Source: a virus | Virus record (IMG/VR): IMGVR_UViG_3300034064_000681 | Span: 1 to 26,042 of that record | DNA length: 26,042 nt | Reading direction: 5' to 3' (one strand) | Part shown: positions 3,262 through 22,638 of the stretch, piece by piece | Numbering within the stretch: the first letter of the stretch is position 1 | Layout of the letters: the number at the start of each line of letters is the position of its first letter | The notes under the pieces: generated by a model | Told to the model about the DNA's origin: nothing | The model's input: the letters and a program-made list of their open reading frames with translations, nothing else | Databases searched by the model: none | Translations under genes and position numbers: made by a program

Positions 3262-3416
3262 GCACCAGATAGACTGGAACCAGAAGCGGACGGCACCAGA
3301 TAGACTGGAACCAGAAGCGGACGGCACCAGATAGACTGGAACCAGAAGCGGACGGCACCAGATAGACTGGAACCAGAAGCGGACGGCACCAGATAGACTG
3401 GAACCAGAAGCGGACG
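3262..3416. repeat. 31-bp tandem array, 5 perfect copies
   Basis: Five identical units of 31 bp (starts 3262, 3293, 3324, 3355, 3386) beginning GCACCAGATAGACTGGAACC. No spacers. Clearly richer in GC than the surrounding AT-rich sequence. The last base of unit 5 is the first base of the following 21-bp array, so the two arrays abut exactly. Because 31 is 1 mod 3, each unit is read in a new frame; long open frames on either strand are a by-product. Confidence 0.97.
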
Positions 3417-3682
3417 AGGCAACCTATAAACCCTACGAGGCAACCTATAAACCCCACGAGGCAACCTATAAACCCTACGAGGCAACCTATAAACCCCACG
3501 AGGCAACCTATAAACCCTACGAGGCAACCTATAAACCCTACGAGGCAACCTATAAACCCCACGAGGCAACCTATAAACCCTACGAGGCAACCTATAAACC
3601 CCACGAGGCAACCTATAAACCCCACGAGGCAACCTATAAACCCCACGAGGCAACCTATAAACCCTACGAGGCAACCTATAAA
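3416..3682. repeat. 21-bp tandem array, 12 copies plus a 15-nt partial, with a C/T polymorphism
   Basis: Unit of 21 bp beginning GAGGCAACCTATAAACCC and ending with TAC or CAC. The variable base runs T C T C T T C T C C C T across the 12 full units; all other positions are invariant. The partial 13th copy ends at 3682 where AT-rich sequence resumes. Since 21 is a multiple of three, the plus strand encodes a heptapeptide repeat (EATYKP followed by Y or H), but no start codon precedes it. A near-copy of the unit lies inside the phage exonuclease gene at about 6774-6794. Confidence 0.97.
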
Positions 3683-3727: not shown

Positions 3728-3818
3728 TTTTAGTATTGTCGCTGATACAAATAAAAATTTAATAAAATTCCTGCATTGATATAGACAGCGACCTATTGAT
3801 ATGTGGGTTTTTTGTATT

Positions 3819-4295
3819 ATGGAAGAAATATATAAAGATGTTATTGGGTATGAAGGAATTTATCAGGTATCTAATTTTGGTAATATTAAATGCTGTAAAA
3901 CTAATTTAATTAAAAATTATTATTTAGAAAAAAACGGATATTATTCTATTACATTGCGTAAAAATGGAATTGGAAAGACAAGAAAAGTTCATCAATTAGT
4001 TGCTGAATCATTTTTAAATCATAAAAGATGCGGATTAAAGTTGGTTATAAATCACATTGATTTAGATAAAACTAATAACAAAGTGGACAATTTAGAATTA
4101 ATTACAAATAGAGAAAATTGTAATAGAAAGCATTTAAAATCAACATCTAAATATATAGGTGTCCACTGGAATACAAAAGATAAAAAATGGAAGTCAGTTA
4201 TCTCTATAAATGGAAAGTCTAAATTTTTAGGATATTTTATAACTGAATTAGAAGCATCAGAAGCATATCAAGAAGCATTGTTAAACTTTTGTTAA
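3819..4295 (+). CDS. Free-standing homing endonuclease: NUMOD4 - HNH - AP2-like
   Basis: 158 aa from ATG 3819 (an in-frame ATG at 3801 would add six residues, MWVFCI, but the product from 3819 begins exactly at the NUMOD4 motif). Domains in order: NUMOD4-like EIYKDVIGYEGIYQVSNFG at 3-21; HNH core with VHQLVAESF at 57-65, INHIDLDKTNN at 77-87 and VDNLELIT at 89-96; an AP2-like DNA-binding segment from about 109 to 155 (SKYIGVHWN, FLGYFITELEASEAY). Such enzymes cut DNA at specific sites and spread their own gene. It sits alone between the repeat arrays and small genes, with its own promoter box. Confidence 0.88.
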   Translation: MEEIYKDVIGYEGIYQVSNFGNIKCCKTNLIKNYYLEKNGYYSITLRKNGIGKTRKVHQLVAESFLNHKRCGLKLVINHIDLDKTNNKVDNLELITNRENCNRKHLKSTSKYIGVHWNTKDKKWKSVISINGKSKFLGYFITELEASEAYQEALLNFC

Positions 4296-8931: not shown

Positions 8932-9143
8932 TAACAATAGCAGCTGGATTAATAGCAGTAGTTTGGTTCTTAATGGAATTAATTTACCATTATCAAGGAG
9001 AAATAACAATAGTTCCAATTAAGGGCGTAATGCTCGGAGCGTTATATAATAGTGAGGAAATCGAAGAAGAAGATACCGAACATATTATCCAAATACTTTT
9101 TTTTGTATTTTCTTTCAATTTTATTTGGATAACTGAGAATTAA
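8928..9143 (+). CDS. 71-aa membrane protein
   Basis: Starts MITIAAGLIAVVWFLMELIY, a first membrane span at about 2-20, then a loop with EEIEEEDTEH, and a second span near residues 52-67 (IIQILFFVFSFNFIWI). Last gene before the promoter at 9124-9155, which lies over its 3' end. Function unknown. Confidence 0.6.
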   Translation: MITIAAGLIAVVWFLMELIYHYQGEITIVPIKGVMLGALYNSEEIEEEDTEHIIQILFFVFSFNFIWITEN

Positions 9144-14687: not shown

Positions 14688-15911
14688 ATGGAATTAAGAC
14701 CTTATCAAGACGAAATAGCTCAAAAAGCTACTAAAATCCTAAAAGAATGTGGATTTGTTTACCTATCGATGGAAGTTAGAACTGGAAAGACAATTACCGC
14801 ATTAGAAACTGCTTATAACTTTGGTGCTGAACGTGTGCTATTTATAACTAAAATCAAAGCATTTTCCTCAATCAAAAGTGATTACGATAACATTGGGTAC
14901 TTATATAACCTAACTATTATTAACAAGGAATCTTTGCATACAATTGAGGATAATGACTTTGATGTGATTATAATTGATGAAGCACACGGATTAGCTGCAT
15001 TTCCAAAAGCATCAAAATATCAAAAGGACATACGTAAAAGATTTAGTAAAGTGCCAATGATATTTTTATCAGGAACACCAACTCCTGAATCATTCAGCCA
15101 ATGGTATCACCAATTGCAGGTAACAGATAAAAGTCCATTCAAACATTACATTAACTTCTACAAATGGGCGAATGATTATGTGAATGTAACAGAACAGAAT
15201 TTAGGATATGCAAGAGTTAAAGTTTATAAGGATGGAATTGAAAGTAAAATTTTACCTCAAATACAACCGTATATTATAACTTTTACACAAGCACAAGCTG
15301 GATTTACATCCGAAGTAAACGAACATATATTAGAGTGCCAAATGGAGGATATAACCTATGATATTATTAAGCGATTAAAACGTGATAAGATAGTGCAGGG
15401 TAAAAGTGGACTCATATTAGGAGATACTGGAGTAAAATTGATGCAGAAGGTACACCAATTATCGTCAGGGACTTGTAAGTTTGAAGATGGCACATCAATG
15501 GTAATTGATTATTCAAAGGCAAAGTTTATAGAGGAAAGGTTTAGATTTAATAAGATTGCTATATTCTATAAATTTAAGGAAGAACTAAATGCCTTAAAAA
15601 GCATTTATGGAAGTGATTTAACAGAAGATTTGGATGAGTTTAATAATACCTTTAAATGTATAGCTTTACAAATCGTGTCAGGTCGTGAAGGTATAAGTTT
15701 AAAAAACGCAAAGTACTTAGTGTACTACAATATTGATTTTTCTGCTACAAGTTATTGGCAATCAAGAGATAGGCTAACCACAATGGACAGAAATACTAAT
15801 GATATTTATTGGGTATTCTCTAAAGGAGGTATTGAGAAAAGTATCTATAAATCTGTGATGAATAAAAAGAATTACACTTTATCGAATTTTAATCGTGAAA
15901 ACATTTTGTAA
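14688..15911 (+). CDS. SF2 DNA helicase (DEAH-type), phage
   Basis: 407 aa. Motifs in order: Walker A EVRTGKT at 29-35, ITKIKAFSSIKSDY motif-Ia region, DEAH at 97-100 (VIIIDEAHG), motif III FLSGTPTPES at 127-135, and motif VI WQSRDRLTT near residue 370. RecA-like domain 1 spans about 1-190, domain 2 about 230-400. It would unwind or remodel DNA during phage replication or recombination. The C-terminal segment (FSKGGIEKSIYKSVMNKKNY) is typical of phage SF2 helicases. Its last bases contain the TTTG of the next promoter. Confidence 0.85.
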   Translation: MELRPYQDEIAQKATKILKECGFVYLSMEVRTGKTITALETAYNFGAERVLFITKIKAFSSIKSDYDNIGYLYNLTIINKESLHTIEDNDFDVIIIDEAHGLAAFPKASKYQKDIRKRFSKVPMIFLSGTPTPESFSQWYHQLQVTDKSPFKHYINFYKWANDYVNVTEQNLGYARVKVYKDGIESKILPQIQPYIITFTQAQAGFTSEVNEHILECQMEDITYDIIKRLKRDKIVQGKSGLILGDTGVKLMQKVHQLSSGTCKFEDGTSMVIDYSKAKFIEERFRFNKIAIFYKFKEELNALKSIYGSDLTEDLDEFNNTFKCIALQIVSGREGISLKNAKYLVYYNIDFSATSYWQSRDRLTTMDRNTNDIYWVFSKGGIEKSIYKSVMNKKNYTLSNFNRENIL

Positions 15912-15934
15912 TTCAAAATAAAGTATTATATTTG
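15905..15934 (+). promoter_or_regulatory. Promoter TTTG-N18-TATATTTG ahead of the attC-like hairpin
   Basis: TTTG 15905-15908 and TATATTTG 15927-15934. The 21-nt string from 15919 to 15939 recurs exactly at 17509-17529. It would transcribe through the hairpin at 15946-16022 into the following two-gene segment. Confidence 0.7.
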
Positions 15935-15945
15935 TCAAAAATAAG

Positions 15946-16022
15946 GCATAACGTTTGTCGCTTGTACTAGGCGGCTATGCAGTTGCGTATATTCTGCCGC
16001 TTAGTACAAGCGATTGTTAGGG
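15946..16022 (+). other. attC-like long hairpin
   Basis: TCGCTTGTACTA (15958-15969) pairs with TAGTACAAGCGA (16002-16013); then one G:U, then GCGGC (15971-15975) with GCCGC (15996-16000), an 18-pair imperfect stem. Outside it TAAC (15949-15952) pairs with GTTA (16016-16019), separated by unequal unpaired spacers (5 and 2 nt). This order matches integron attC sites: R'' box, spacer, L'', loop, L', spacer, R' box. The boxes deviate from RYYYAAC/GTTRRRY by one base each (GCATAAC, GTTAGGG). No T-run follows, so it is not a plain terminator. Confidence 0.45.
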
Positions 16023-16058
16023 GATGTTATTTTATTAATAATTTTTAAAAAAACTAAA

Positions 16059-16367
16059 ATGAAAAAACAATGTTTACATAAATTTCATTCTGTTTACTAC
16101 GGGAGTGAATGGGAAGTAGAGTGTGAAAAATGCGATAAAAATGTACGTGATTTATACGGTAAAGAAGATGCTAATAAAATAGTTGATGATTTATTACTTA
16201 TTACAAATCATAAAAAATATAATTTTTATAACACTGGAACGGCTCAGGAATGTATAGATGAAGATAATTATTGGAATCCAAGAACAGAAGAAGAAAAAGA
16301 GTTTGGATGTATTGTTTCTTTAGTTTTTGCAGCAATAGTTTTTATTATAATTTATTTTATATGGTAG
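16059..16367 (+). CDS. 102-aa zinc-knuckle protein with C-terminal membrane anchor
   Basis: From ATG 16059. N-terminal CxxxFH...C..C pattern (CLHKFHSVYYGSEWEVECEK then CDKNVRDLYG) could bind zinc. The C terminus is a clear membrane span (IVSLVFAAIVFIIIYFIW) ending at the last residue, so the protein is probably tail-anchored with the N terminus in the cytoplasm. It overlaps the PAPS-reductase-like gene by 7 nt and forms with it the content of the cassette-like segment. No family recognised. Confidence 0.62.
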   Translation: MKKQCLHKFHSVYYGSEWEVECEKCDKNVRDLYGKEDANKIVDDLLLITNHKKYNFYNTGTAQECIDEDNYWNPRTEEEKEFGCIVSLVFAAIVFIIIYFIW

Positions 16368-17248
16368 TAGTAAAAGATGTTATTTGCTGGTGGTCGGGTG
16401 GAGTTACTTCCGCAGTTGCTTGTAAAATTGCTATTGATATTTACGGAATTGAAAGATGTAAATTAATAATGATTGATACACACAATGAAGATGATGATAC
16501 TTACAGATTTAAAGCAGATTGTGAAAAATGGTACGGCAAAGAAATTGAAACTATCACATACATAGGCGAAAAATACAGTTCTATTCAAGATGTATGGAGA
16601 AAGCATTTATCATTAAACGTGGCTACTGGTGCAATTTGTTCAAGTATATTAAAACGTAAATGCAGAGAAGATTGGCAAAAAACGGCAGTTTATGATTTTC
16701 AAGTGTTTGGATTTGAATTTGAGAAAAAAGAATTTAACCGAGCATTAGGAATGAAAATGAACCATCCGAAAGCGAAAGCAATATATCCTTTATTGATGTA
16801 TGGTTACGACAAAAAGAAATGTATTGAAATAGTCGAAGATGCAGAAATAGAAATTCCTAAAATGTATCAATTAGGTTTTCAAAATAACAACTGTTTTAAA
16901 ACTGGATGCGTTCAAGGTGGCATTGGTTATTGGCAAAAAATGAAACGTGAATTTCCTGATAAGTTTTATGCAATGGCTGAAATGGAACACGAATTAACAG
17001 ACGAAAGCGGAGAGCCTAAAACGATGTTAAAAGACCAAAGCAAAGAAGCAAAGGAAAGTTTTAACGAATTAGTTTTTTTAGTAAAGCATCCATACTATCC
17101 AAATTTAAAAAGCATTGATGAAATGCCTGATTGTAAAGTAGAACCTTTATTTGATTGCAACGGACTTTGTGGAATAAATGATTTTGACCGCAACAAAACC
17201 GAAAAAGATATTAATTATGAGGGGTCGTTGTTCTATAATATCCCCTAA
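16361..17248 (+). CDS. PAPS-reductase-like ATP pyrophosphatase (PP-loop) protein
   Basis: 295 aa from ATG 16361 (longer readings merely use another frame of the upstream gene). PP-loop WSGGVTSAV at 11-19 binds the ATP pyrophosphate; IDTHNEDDDTYRF follows as the second family strand. Cysteines in GAICSSILKRKCR, NNCFKTGCVQGG and CNGLCG could form a metal or Fe-S site. Phage members of this family are often labelled PAPS reductase, but no thioredoxin or sulfate genes are near; DNA or nucleotide modification is an alternative. Its stop codon lies in CCCCTAAC, the right boundary of the cassette-like segment. Confidence 0.78.
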   Translation: MVVVKDVICWWSGGVTSAVACKIAIDIYGIERCKLIMIDTHNEDDDTYRFKADCEKWYGKEIETITYIGEKYSSIQDVWRKHLSLNVATGAICSSILKRKCREDWQKTAVYDFQVFGFEFEKKEFNRALGMKMNHPKAKAIYPLLMYGYDKKKCIEIVEDAEIEIPKMYQLGFQNNNCFKTGCVQGGIGYWQKMKREFPDKFYAMAEMEHELTDESGEPKTMLKDQSKEAKESFNELVFLVKHPYYPNLKSIDEMPDCKVEPLFDCNGLCGINDFDRNKTEKDINYEGSLFYNIP

Positions 17249-17249
17249 C
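17235..17249 (-). repeat. Right boundary of a cassette-like segment, complementary to 16016-16030
   Basis: The 15 nt here are the reverse complement of 16016-16030 (GTTAGGGGATGTTAT) at 14 of 15 positions. In an integron cassette the first bases after the left attC cut and the first arm of the cassette's own attC are expected to be complementary in just this way. The remainder of a second hairpin is missing: the sequence after CCCCTAAC does not fold back. Confidence 0.5.
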
Positions 17250-17284
17250 TATTCGCTAACAGCAACTTTAATACACGCTTAACT

Positions 17285-17506
17285 ATGACTATCACTGTGA
17301 ATTATATTGCAAACTATCGTTTAAATTTCGCTACAAATTACGTGTTTACGAAATGTGGTTTGTGTTATAATATGCAAAGTGGTAAGTTAATAAAACAAAT
17401 ATTGAAAGGAAGTACAATAGGTTATGTTATAGCAAGTAAATTTTATTCACTTAATTTTTTAAGAAGTAAATTAGAATTTATACCTAAAAATATTTGTCCA
17501 TTTTAA
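17285..17506 (+). CDS. Small conserved phage protein
   Basis: 73 aa. The C-terminal half (SGKLIKQILKGSTIGYVIAS then KFYSLNFLRSKLEFIPK) is a pattern I have seen in Bacteroidota phage small proteins near replication genes; function unknown. The N-terminal half is strand-rich. No promoter box immediately upstream, so it probably relies on read-through from 15905. Confidence 0.55.
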   Translation: MTITVNYIANYRLNFATNYVFTKCGLCYNMQSGKLIKQILKGSTIGYVIASKFYSLNFLRSKLEFIPKNICPF

Positions 17507-17524
17507 ATTAAAGTATTATATTTG
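17493..17524 (+). promoter_or_regulatory. Promoter TTTG-N20-TATATTTG, 4 nt before an ATG
   Basis: TTTG 17493-17496, TATATTTG 17517-17524, ATG at 17529. The spacing implies transcription starting on or next to the start codon. The sequence from 17509 to 17529 duplicates 15919-15939. Confidence 0.75.
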
Positions 17525-17528
17525 TCAA

Positions 17529-17783
17529 ATGAAAAAGCAAATAGCTTATACCGCATTACCTCCTGAGTGCATTACATTTCAAAAGCGTGAGTATTGGTTA
17601 GACCAACGCATCCAGCTGACTCCATTAGGAAAAGAAATTAGATATAGTGGGATTAGAGTAAATGAGGATATGCCAAATAAGTACGGAAAGTATCATTGGA
17701 TATATACATTTATTTATTTAGATGGAAGTGGATTAGTAGAGTTTGAATGTGATTATGATAATAAGATATATGTTAGAAAGTAG
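17529..17783 (+). CDS. Hypothetical 84-aa protein, leaderless
   Basis: Starts MKKQIAYTALPPECITFQKR; beta-rich with many aromatic residues (KYGKYHWIYTFIYLDGSG). No recognised motif. The ATG directly follows the -7 box. The 3' end overlaps the VRR-NUC gene by 14 nt. Confidence 0.65.
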   Translation: MKKQIAYTALPPECITFQKREYWLDQRIQLTPLGKEIRYSGIRVNEDMPNKYGKYHWIYTFIYLDGSGLVEFECDYDNKIYVRK

Positions 17784-18271: not shown

Positions 18272-18709
18272 ATGAAAAGATTTTTTGATAAAGTAGAAAA
18301 AACAGAAAACTGTTGGATATGGACTGCTGCAAGTAGAGGTAAATCAGGATATGGAGCATTTAAACTAAATGGTAAAGTTATAGATTCACATAGAGTTTCA
18401 TATTCATTACATAATGGAGATATTCCAATAGGTATGTATGTATGTCATAGTTGCGATAATAGAAAATGTGTTAATCCTAATCATTTATTCTTAGGAACTG
18501 CTAAAGATAATTGGCAAGACGCATTTAATAAAAATAGGATAAAACTTTTAGGAGGTATTAATATTGAAAAACTTAAAAAACATCCAAGTATAGGAGCTTA
18601 CAATAGAGGATGTAGATGTTTAGATTGTAAGGAATTAAAATTTACATCTCAAAAAAATTGGAGAAATAAACAAAAATTTATAAACAATGAAAGAAAATGC
18701 AATGATTAA
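18272..18709 (+). CDS. HNH (His-Me finger) endonuclease
   Basis: 145 aa. Pattern [19 protein letters not shown] then [36 protein letters not shown] and DNWQDA is the HNH_3-type His-Me finger fold; catalytic His in SHR/VCH, structural Cys pairs CHSC and CVNP bind zinc. The C terminus [15 protein letters not shown] is a second Cys motif common in phage HNH proteins. Its end overlaps the next gene by 23 nt, suggesting insertion close to a gene start. Confidence 0.85.
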
Positions 18710-21376: not shown

Positions 21377-21800
21377 ATATTCTTCGTCTAGTTAAACCTG
21401 CTAATTTTTTAGTGCCTACCTTATCCCATTTTAAAAACTCTGTACGTATAGCTGGGTCTGTATGATTTAGATTTACTTTCTTTAATAGTGTACTATTCAT
21501 AAAATTTGCTACTCCTACATTATAAGCGAAAGACACTAAAGAATTGAATTGATTTTGAGTTATTGGTGATTTAACACAAGTTGAAACTCTTTTAGCAAAT
21601 TTGTCAGCAATATCCTTAAACATATCAAATGCTTCTGCTTTTGTAATTGACTTGTCAATCATAGTTACTTTTCTGCCATCTCTATAAAACGTATTGCCAT
21701 AGCCAATTGTTGCTAATTTAGCAGGGCATAGGTATGGTTTAGCACTAAATCCTTCAAATTCACATATCATTAAATATCCGCTGTTATTAAGTTTAGGCAT
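21345..21800 (-). CDS. Phage lysozyme (endolysin), GH24 muramidase
   Basis: 151 aa. Catalytic triad pattern E-x8-C-x5-T: E16 in CEFEGF, C25 in PYLCPAK, T31 in ATIGYGNT; the middle residue is Cys instead of Asp, as in the P1-like branch. NQFNSLVSFAYNVG and GLTRRRIYEADNY are the conserved C-terminal helices. It cleaves the glycan of peptidoglycan. No signal peptide or SAR segment is seen, so it needs a holin. Its start overlaps the GIY-YIG gene by 8 nt. Confidence 0.9.
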   Translation of the reverse strand: MPKLNNSGYLMICEFEGFSAKPYLCPAKLATIGYGNTFYRDGRKVTMIDKSITKAEAFDMFKDIADKFAKRVSTCVKSPITQNQFNSLVSFAYNVGVANFMNSTLLKKVNLNHTDPAIRTEFLKWDKVGTKKLAGLTRRRIYEADNYFKEE

Positions 21801-22638
21801 ATCTTAAGTTTGTTTTGTTTTTATTATTACCTTTTAATTGCATACACAATGTCGTTTCTTTTATATTATAAATTAATGAAGCTTCTCTTAATGATTCATA
21901 AAATACACCATTACTAATATCTATTATAATCATTGACCTATTAGATTTTTTTCCGTTTTTAGCTAATGATAAATTTTTCTTGTGTTCTTCTGAAAAGTTT
22001 TTACCTAACCAAAATTTAGAATTATTATCAATCATTTTTTTTATTGTTGATTCAGAAAAAATATTTCCTAATAATTTTTTAGATATTTTATTTTTTGTTT
22101 CTTCTGAACGTTTTTTACCACTCCAAAATTTAGCATTATTTTCTGACATTTTAATTTTAGTTGAAATAGAATGCTTCTTATTTAACATTGCACCTTTTCT
22201 ACCAATTCTAGATAAACTCATTTTTAATTTAGTTTCTTCAGAATGTTTTTTTCCTAAATTTATATTTTTTAACCTTGCTTTTTGTTTGTCAGACACTATT
22301 CTTCCTTTATTTGATAAACCTATTTTAATTTTAGTTTCTTCACTTAGTAATCCGCTTTTATCATTTGATTTAGTTAATTTACAATTCAAACCATTTTTTT
22401 CAATTGCTAAATATAAATCTTGATAATATCTTTCTTTGTCGTTTAATTCATTTATATTACACTCTAAAATAATTTCAAATCTATGATTATTAAAACCATA
22501 TTTTTTTAGAGAATTGTATAATCTTATTTGATTTTTACAATCTAAACATTTATATTTTGTAAATCTATTTTCTATATCAATAGACTGACCTATATAAATT
22601 TTATTCGTCGGACTTGTTATTTTATAAATTCCTATCAT
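21793..22638 (-). CDS. GIY-YIG homing endonuclease with NUMOD3 repeats
   Basis: 281 aa. Catalytic GIY (residues 3-5, GIYKIT) and YIG (15-17, KIYIGQS), followed by R25, NRF and E in the nuclease domain (1-90). Four or five NUMOD3-type repeats follow (SEETKIKIGLSNKGR, SEETKLKMSLSRIGR, SEETKNKISKKLLG, SEEHKKNLSLAKNGK), then a C-terminal NUMOD1-like segment (FYESLREASLIYNIKETTL). It has its own promoter at 22659 and sits between holin-like genes and the lysozyme. Confidence 0.88.
   Translation of the reverse strand: MIGIYKITSPTNKIYIGQSIDIENRFTKYKCLDCKNQIRLYNSLKKYGFNNHRFEIILECNINELNDKERYYQDLYLAIEKNGLNCKLTKSNDKSGLLSEETKIKIGLSNKGRIVSDKQKARLKNINLGKKHSEETKLKMSLSRIGRKGAMLNKKHSISTKIKMSENNAKFWSGKKRSEETKNKISKKLLGNIFSESTIKKMIDNNSKFWLGKNFSEEHKKNLSLAKNGKKSNRSMIIIDISNGVFYESLREASLIYNIKETTLCMQLKGNNKNKTNLRYA

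Follow-up and report, generated by a model that had tools for sequence, protein, structure and literature searches.

A probable integron-like cassette with an upstream attC-type hairpin in a phage contig, and a related site family in Bacteroidota and their phages

In a virus contig of 26,042 nt (IMG/VR record IMGVR_UViG_3300034064_000681, positions 1 to 26,042; this whole stretch is called the window hereafter), the segment 15949-17245 is very probably a mobile cassette, complete in itself, that belongs to an integron-like system found in Bacteroidota and in phages of this phylum. It lies at an attI-like acceptor of the phage, with a helicase gene on one side and orf73/orf84 on the other, and consists of an attC-type hairpin, then orf102, and then a gene encoding a PAPS-reductase-like enzyme (Table 1). 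We consider it fairly probable that an integron-like system has been overlooked which is common to Bacteroidota and their phages and uses a recombinase without the IntI-specific insertion. The same proposal holds that the phages maintain a separate cassette pool with flipped genes, in which the hairpin also encodes the beginning of the protein (start codon and 15-20 residues), the frame continuing over the crossover core, and that the system is present in full in some phages, which have a recombinase and, in one record, as many as 43 sites. Integrons are the textbook device for gene capture and shuffling, and Bacteroidota are a dominant phylum of water, soil and gut.

The window record is a linear contig, a fragment, which besides the helicase also encodes phage endolysin, DNA polymerase exonuclease and RecE-like genes. 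The sequence-only reading had proposed to look for relatives lacking the segment, and six of these (L056, L057, L059, L071, L072 and L075) are empty at the locus: the helicase (92-95% amino acid identity) is directly followed by orf84, with neither cassette nor acceptor. A further relative, L065, is identical to the window up to GGCATAACG and then continues into a different hairpin; it possesses the window's left flank and a matching right flank (an orf73 homologue) with another cassette between them. On the other side, CCCCTAAC is common to the window, L003 and L004, and the flanks beyond it differ. An acceptor-like motif is also present at the array ends of L065, L060, L081, L099, L123, L004 and L044 and beside host recombinases. 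The PAPS-like gene stops, as had been noted before, in this arm-like end, its stop codon being the TAA of CCCCTAAC (17246-17248), and the end complementarity reported earlier at 14 of 15 positions is contained in a longer match of 16/18 between 16013-16030 and 17235-17252.

Table 1. Features of the cassette locus in the window (strand as given in the record; a dot marks features without strand)
Feature	Position	Strand	Remarks
Phage DNA helicase gene	14688..15911	+	phrog_62, 7e-49; backbone, upstream of the cassette locus
Promoter-like backbone repeat TTCAAAATAAAGTATTATATTTGTCAAA, copy 1	15912..15939	+	Bacteroidetes-type TATATTTG -7 motif; 28-nt direct repeat, 93%
Left recombination core TAACG	15949..15953	.	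left end of the mobile unit; boundary resolved to within the core
attC-type hairpin, short class (about 71 nt)	15949..16019	+	canonical attC orientation is the minus strand
First bases of the unit's coding part	16016..16030	+	inverted repeat, complementary to 17235-17249
orf102	16059..16367	+	small protein with a C-terminal hydrophobic stretch
PAPS-reductase-like PP-loop (SGGVTSA) enzyme	16361..17248	+	related to SspD and PptA
Right recombination core TAAC	17246..17249	.	unit end; stop codon of the PAPS-like gene inside the core
attI-like acceptor TAACTATTCGCTAACAGC	17246..17263	-	adjoins the insertion end
orf73, backbone gene	17285..17506	+	acceptor side; L065 has a homologue (37% amino acid identity) in the corresponding position
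Promoter-like backbone repeat, copy 2	17502..17529	+	directly before orf84

The promoter-like repeat has a weaker third match at 9142. The sequence-only reading had likened the copy before the hairpin to an array promoter; a promoter-like motif is indeed there, but because it also precedes orf84 in the cassette-free relatives, it is part of the phage backbone. From this position it can still read into the window cassette.

The hairpin itself was found as previously described, with outer boxes TAAC (15949-15952) and GTTA (16016-16019), unequal spacers of 5 and 2 nt, and 18-nt arms (15958-15975 and 15996-16013) that form 17 Watson-Crick pairs and one G.T pair. Folded as single-stranded DNA it reached a z of -5.5 to -6.0, no shuffled sequence being equally stable. 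A covariance model, R1, derived from 36 other short sites with the window site left out, recovered 15942-16027 with 48.3 bits (E 6.3e-9) as the sole match in the window; hence the hairpin was not rejected in a covariance search with a model of its own site family, which is distinct from the published attC model. As in classical attC sites, the window site is an imperfect palindrome with conserved secondary structure. Its single wobble lies at the G.T position of the site family, and it is 79.5% identical to a hairpin of the Flavobacterium phage FPSV-D15. In canonical orientation its R' box reads GTTATGC, which does not fit GTTRRRY, and an Rfam scan of the window gave no matching family at the gathering threshold.

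This hairpin belongs to a large family of sites. Other phage contigs were scanned for AACG followed, after a spacer of about 5 nt, by a stem-loop and, 1-2 nt further on, by GTT; many such sites were found, and they fall into three length classes of about 69, 86 and 124 nt. Searched for in exact form, a 19-mer of the left arm matched 82 stretches among 85,000 genomes, nearly all of them from Bacteroidota, and the pattern scan of 2.46 Mb of loci yielded 382 sites, compared to 84 in a reversed-sequence control and 42 in a swapped-spacer control; several hundred such sites thus occur in Bacteroidota chromosomes and phages. Covariation supports the stem, since 15 of its 16 pairs change on both sides, 96% of cells are paired and the covariation score is 0.581 versus 0.159 in shuffles. 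One stem position is G.T in all 35 scorable sequences, and the stem has no bulges. R1 sites were present in 53/148 Bacteroidota species, in 5/101 Bacillota (one with 12 sites) and in 2/101 Chloroflexota, one of the latter two being the seed genome; the phyla are those named in the titles of the centre-genome records. The family has its centre in Bacteroidota. The twelve R1 matches of the Bacillota genome G222 are partly clustered and lie on its contigs C1, C6, C8, C20 and C34, so that the same system is possibly present in a Bacillota species.

Neighbouring sites moreover obey a common rule at the cassette ends. When the 5 bases after GTT of one site were compared to the 5 bases before AAC of the next, 152 of 190 pairs were complementary at 5/5, where 14.6 are expected by shuffling. 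Cassette-end complementarity is therefore a general rule of the site family; the window has only one site in the R1 search, and there the rule applies just to the unit's own two ends. The rule, together with adjacent recombinases and variable gene content, also led us to reject a REP/IS200-type repeat, a terminator or a replication hairpin as an explanation of the sites.

A mobile unit of the same build could be delineated in FPSV-D15 and FPSV-D35, two cultured phages of Flavobacterium psychrophilum that both carry site arrays. These phages are 100% identical over 12 kb, save 390 nt found in FPSV-D35 alone (L331, 7917-8306). The additional stretch, placed at the acceptor end of the array, starts with TAACG and a hairpin of the 124-nt class, followed by one gene, and its ends are mutually complementary. 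At the junction, the two phages share a 6-nt overlap, TAACGT, with the crossover inside the core. This difference represents the natural gain or loss of a single cassette, in either direction. Because the mobile unit of FPSV-D35 is a hairpin with its downstream gene, the window unit is taken as complete from 15949 to 17245.

To orient the arrays, we turned to recombinases in host chromosomes. The best TIGR02249 matches in 20 host genomes are tyrosine recombinases, mostly of 345-395 aa. Of the 17 examined, 15 have sites in their region, with the recombinase on the same side in 14 of these 15, namely downstream in the AACG-to-GTTA reading; clear examples are the arrays of Schleiferia thermophila (L317) and Kaistella antarctica (L320), with 13 sites each. 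When the host arrays are read in reverse, the order is recombinase, acceptor, gene-site, gene-site, as in the textbook. AACG-to-GTTA was accordingly dropped as the canonical polarity, host genes and recombinases both pointing the other way.

Gene direction was scored by the longest ORF between complementary neighbouring sites, many of the viral records being fragments. In host cassettes this ORF runs opposite to the AACG-to-GTTA reading in 99 of 104 cases and with it in 5; in phage cassettes it runs with the reading in 58 of 63 and opposite in 5, and the window genes do as in phages. The hairpin thus stands before the gene in phage cassettes and behind it in bacterial cassettes. Phages with their own recombinase have it on the same array side as hosts. 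Because the recombinase side is the same but the gene direction opposite, phage cassettes carry their gene inverted relative to the site. The window cassette is read as the upstream hairpin plus the genes, since the polarity taken from chromosomal arrays with a recombinase is the reverse of the gene direction. Of the cassette proposed in the sequence-only reading, its mobile nature and the end-complementarity rule are thus upheld, and the relative direction of gene and site had to be reversed.

The same evidence bears on the loss of a second hairpin by truncation, which had also been put forward. Here the window would hold a cassette of classical polarity deprived of its own downstream attC, and the upstream hairpin would stem from a preceding cassette. 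Such a cassette would end its gene in an R''-like sequence, as the window gene does in CCCCTAAC. However, the window, L003 and L004 share the exact end after CCCCTAAC, followed by the acceptor-like motif, and truncation would not recur so precisely in three phages; furthermore, the mobile unit of FPSV-D35 has its hairpin upstream of the gene and the recombinase side sets the reverse polarity. We regard truncation as extremely unlikely and consider that the unit carries one site, at its upstream end.

The recombinases beside the arrays are related to, and distinct from, integron integrases. By NCBIfam they score 188-240 bits with NF040815 (cut-off 220), ahead of 168-215 bits with TIGR02249 (cut-off 265). 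In an alignment with IntI1 of R388 and IntI of Shewanella phage M16-3 as references, the IntI-specific insertion of roughly 25-30 residues is absent from all 17. In a tree with these two IntI references and an arbitrary root, the array recombinases fall together with the IntIs and are separated from the XerC/XerD of the hosts, with a support of 100/100. The IntI insertion is held necessary for recombination of folded sites, and an IntI-like recombinase without it makes this need testable.

Some phages encode a tyrosine recombinase themselves. In a virus record of 169.7 kb (L234 record, G175), 43 sites, all in one direction, are spread over 37 kb (77770-116461), and the array ends at a tyrosine recombinase (115994); a record of 362 kb (G174) shows the same arrangement, with a 13-site array and a recombinase at 280502. 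Baseplate and ribonucleotide reductase genes are present on the 362-kb contig, the 169.7-kb contig encodes a tail-fibre-like protein, and the terminase large subunit was found on eight array contigs, including L003, L004, L021 and L044. No PF00589 tyrosine recombinase was detected in the 26-kb window record, L003, L004, L065, L021, L044, L008 or Polaribacter phage P12002L, and the FPSV phages have one distant integrase of 401 aa, away from the array. On the window phage and other recombinase-free array phages, the recombinase would presumably act in trans.

A loose acceptor motif, AACTn6T(A/T)nnC(G/A), occurs at 12/32 phage ends and 7/17 host ends, versus 2.9% of the TAACT background. Found at array ends and beside recombinases, it is a candidate attI-like acceptor. 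In L060, L004, L044, L081, L099, L123 and L330 the acceptor is followed by the start of a small gene, AAATGTATTACAA(T/A)(T/A)ATG, whose protein begins with TKVIRIS and ends with ECPF. This gene is kept in several unrelated phages and might encode an accessory factor.

Taken as a mechanism, these elements would operate as follows. During infection phage DNA would be partly single-stranded, and the plus strand of the window, which we infer to be the folded strand, would form the hairpin. The enzyme would be a tyrosine recombinase supplied by the host or by a co-infecting phage that has one; it would cut at the core (5'-G^TTA on the minus strand, that is TAA^C on the plus strand) and join the cut core to one that matches it, in an acceptor or in a different array. 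In the circular cassette, the complementary ends GTTAGGGGATGTTAT and ATAATATCCCCTAAC would meet as the outer arms of the site. With the phage gene flipped relative to the site, the hairpin lies upstream and the gene runs along phage transcription. The sequences themselves show the site with its covariation, the complementarity of cassette ends, a recombinase beside arrays, a gene polarity that differs between hosts and phages, and the natural single-cassette difference; recombination through a folded single strand, and the host recombinase as the enzyme cutting these sites, are what this mechanism would presume.

Clusters of attC sites without integrase (CALINs) have been reported in virulent phages, including Polaribacter phage P12002L, by Qi et al. 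(2023, PMC9892861), who described a Bacteroidota phage with DNA methyltransferase cassettes and found five of six tested phage attCs to be substrates of IntI1. Such CALINs resemble the window in having attC sites and cassettes in phages without integrase. Their work called for classical models and a minimum of two attCs, whereas the window has a single site; a Bacteroidota-wide site family, an insertion-free recombinase, the inverted polarity, the acceptor motif and isogenic phages that differ in a single cassette are not part of it. In P12002L, R1 detects three sites, which lie on the same strand as the genes of this phage. The unit might be a bona fide classical cassette, an IntI-dependent CALIN from a proteobacterial-type integron: sites of the window type occur in P12002L, and its predicted attC2, which may be one of the R1 sites, was recombined by IntI1 (PMC9892861). 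Several findings argue against this reading, which we consider unlikely. R1 does not recognise the attCs of the class 1 integron of R388 and has one weak match (E 0.22) in the Shewanella phage integron. GTTRRRY fits just 20 of 357 R' boxes, the box of the present sites being GTTANNNG. The associated recombinases remain under the TIGR02249 cut-off and lack the IntI insertion, and the family is centred on Bacteroidota, with far smaller fractions of species in the two other phyla.

The system works like that of integron cassettes, without being classical. Shared with integrons of the IntI, attI and attC type are the arrays of genes and palindromic sites, the complementary R''/R' ends, the tyrosine recombinase at one array end, with a candidate acceptor beside it, and the grouping of the recombinases with IntI1 and the Shewanella IntI. 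Where classical attCs have bulged extrahelical bases, the present stems show an invariant G.T position and no bulges. The IntI insertion and the GTTRRRY box set it apart, as does, in phages, gene polarity: classical cassettes have their gene upstream of and co-oriented with attC, which holds in hosts and is reversed in phages and in the window. The IntegronFinder 2.0 survey listed one complete integron in Bacteroidetes, that of Salinibacter ruber M1, and otherwise In0 (PMC9024848), whereas arrays were found here in about a third of the species sampled from this phylum; the Bacteroidota arrays apparently are outside the reach of classical models. In the open-access literature, with few subscription papers and no preprints covered, we found no description of a Bacteroidota attC-array family. 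Phage-borne attC sites are already known, and the present variant appears to be new.

With respect to the genes carried, orf102 had no match in Pfam, PHROGs, PADLOC or PDB. The PAPS-like protein matches phrog_424 (1e-41), SspD in PADLOC (7e-11) and chain C of PDB entry 21fy, named PptA (1.9e-37), and thereby resembles SspD of the Ssp phosphorothioation system. It is probably a DNA-modification or counter-defence gene, as judged from these matches, and may help the phage against host defences that target DNA. Both genes occur together also in L003 (orf102 100% identical at the amino acid level) and L017 (68%). Because the pair is 96.5% identical in DNA between L003 and the window and the helicase just 58%, the gene pair moved recently. 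The stretch of identity shared by L003 and the window begins at 15995, within the right arm and away from a core, which indicates that at least one exchange took a route other than core recombination. The site upstream of orf102 in L003 (3525-3680) is a hybrid, in which a left half and loop of the 124-nt class are joined to the window's right arm; its arms pair poorly, and core recombination does not explain it.

Relatives carrying the genes without a hairpin had been named beforehand as evidence against a cassette. They do occur, since among the 53 relatives found for the PAPS-like gene about 45 have no site directly upstream, yet at least seven unrelated phage contigs besides L003 have a co-oriented site at that position. 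As some relatives have an upstream site and most do not, the gene occurs both inside and outside cassettes. This distribution, the 28-nt direct repeats flanking the island and the hybrid hairpin of L003 would also suit transfer of the genes by homologous or illegitimate recombination between phages, the hairpin being a passive conserved repeat, a terminator or a REP-like element. Passive hairpins do not account for the covariation, for end complementarity over hundreds of cassettes, for the adjacent recombinase or for the exact one-cassette difference at the core; every array has different units, and a transposase-like pattern is absent. We judge this explanation very improbable and retain the mobile cassette.

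Of 82 phage sites in the 124-nt class, 50 have a loop ATG from which a reading frame continues over the right arm and the GTTA box and extends into the cassette for 40 codons or more. Such frames are rare otherwise, with 4/172 host sites in the same direction, 8/172 in the other, and 4/82 phage sites when reversed. Several of the extended frames belong to recognisable enzymes, for instance a C5 methyltransferase (L258, 1488-2399, minus strand), N6/N4 methyltransferases (L270, 1118-1897, minus strand; L234; L224) and Mom (L008, 542-1267), the methyltransferases and Mom thus being encoded in phage cassettes other than that of the window. In L004 (3864-4900), the PAPS-like protein has its predicted start, MKTSTKQSSNKAENG, inside the hairpin. 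The window hairpin, of the short class, has no loop ATG, and orf102 and the PAPS-like gene use their own starts.

If these interpretations hold, sites of this kind are present in roughly one Bacteroidota species in three, in a phylum recorded as nearly integron-free (PMC9024848), and the phages of this phylum draw on the same kind of system. Phage cassettes would then form a separate pool of inverted polarity, made up mostly of DNA-modification genes (methyltransferases, Mom, PAPS/SspD-like). The system also offers natural phage pairs one cassette apart and a recombination site at which translation would start as well.

Elsewhere in the window, tandem-repeat arrays are located at 1-129 (32 nt x 4), 3262-3416 (31 nt x 5) and 3414-3682 (21 nt x 12.8). 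Two of the three are perfect, and the last two adjoin, yielding repetitive reading frames. A GIY-YIG homing endonuclease gene (phrog_314) lies at 21796-22638 on the minus strand, and HNH-like ORFs were recognised by eye at 18272-18709 and 3801-4295, both on the plus strand, which makes several homing-type genes in 26 kb.
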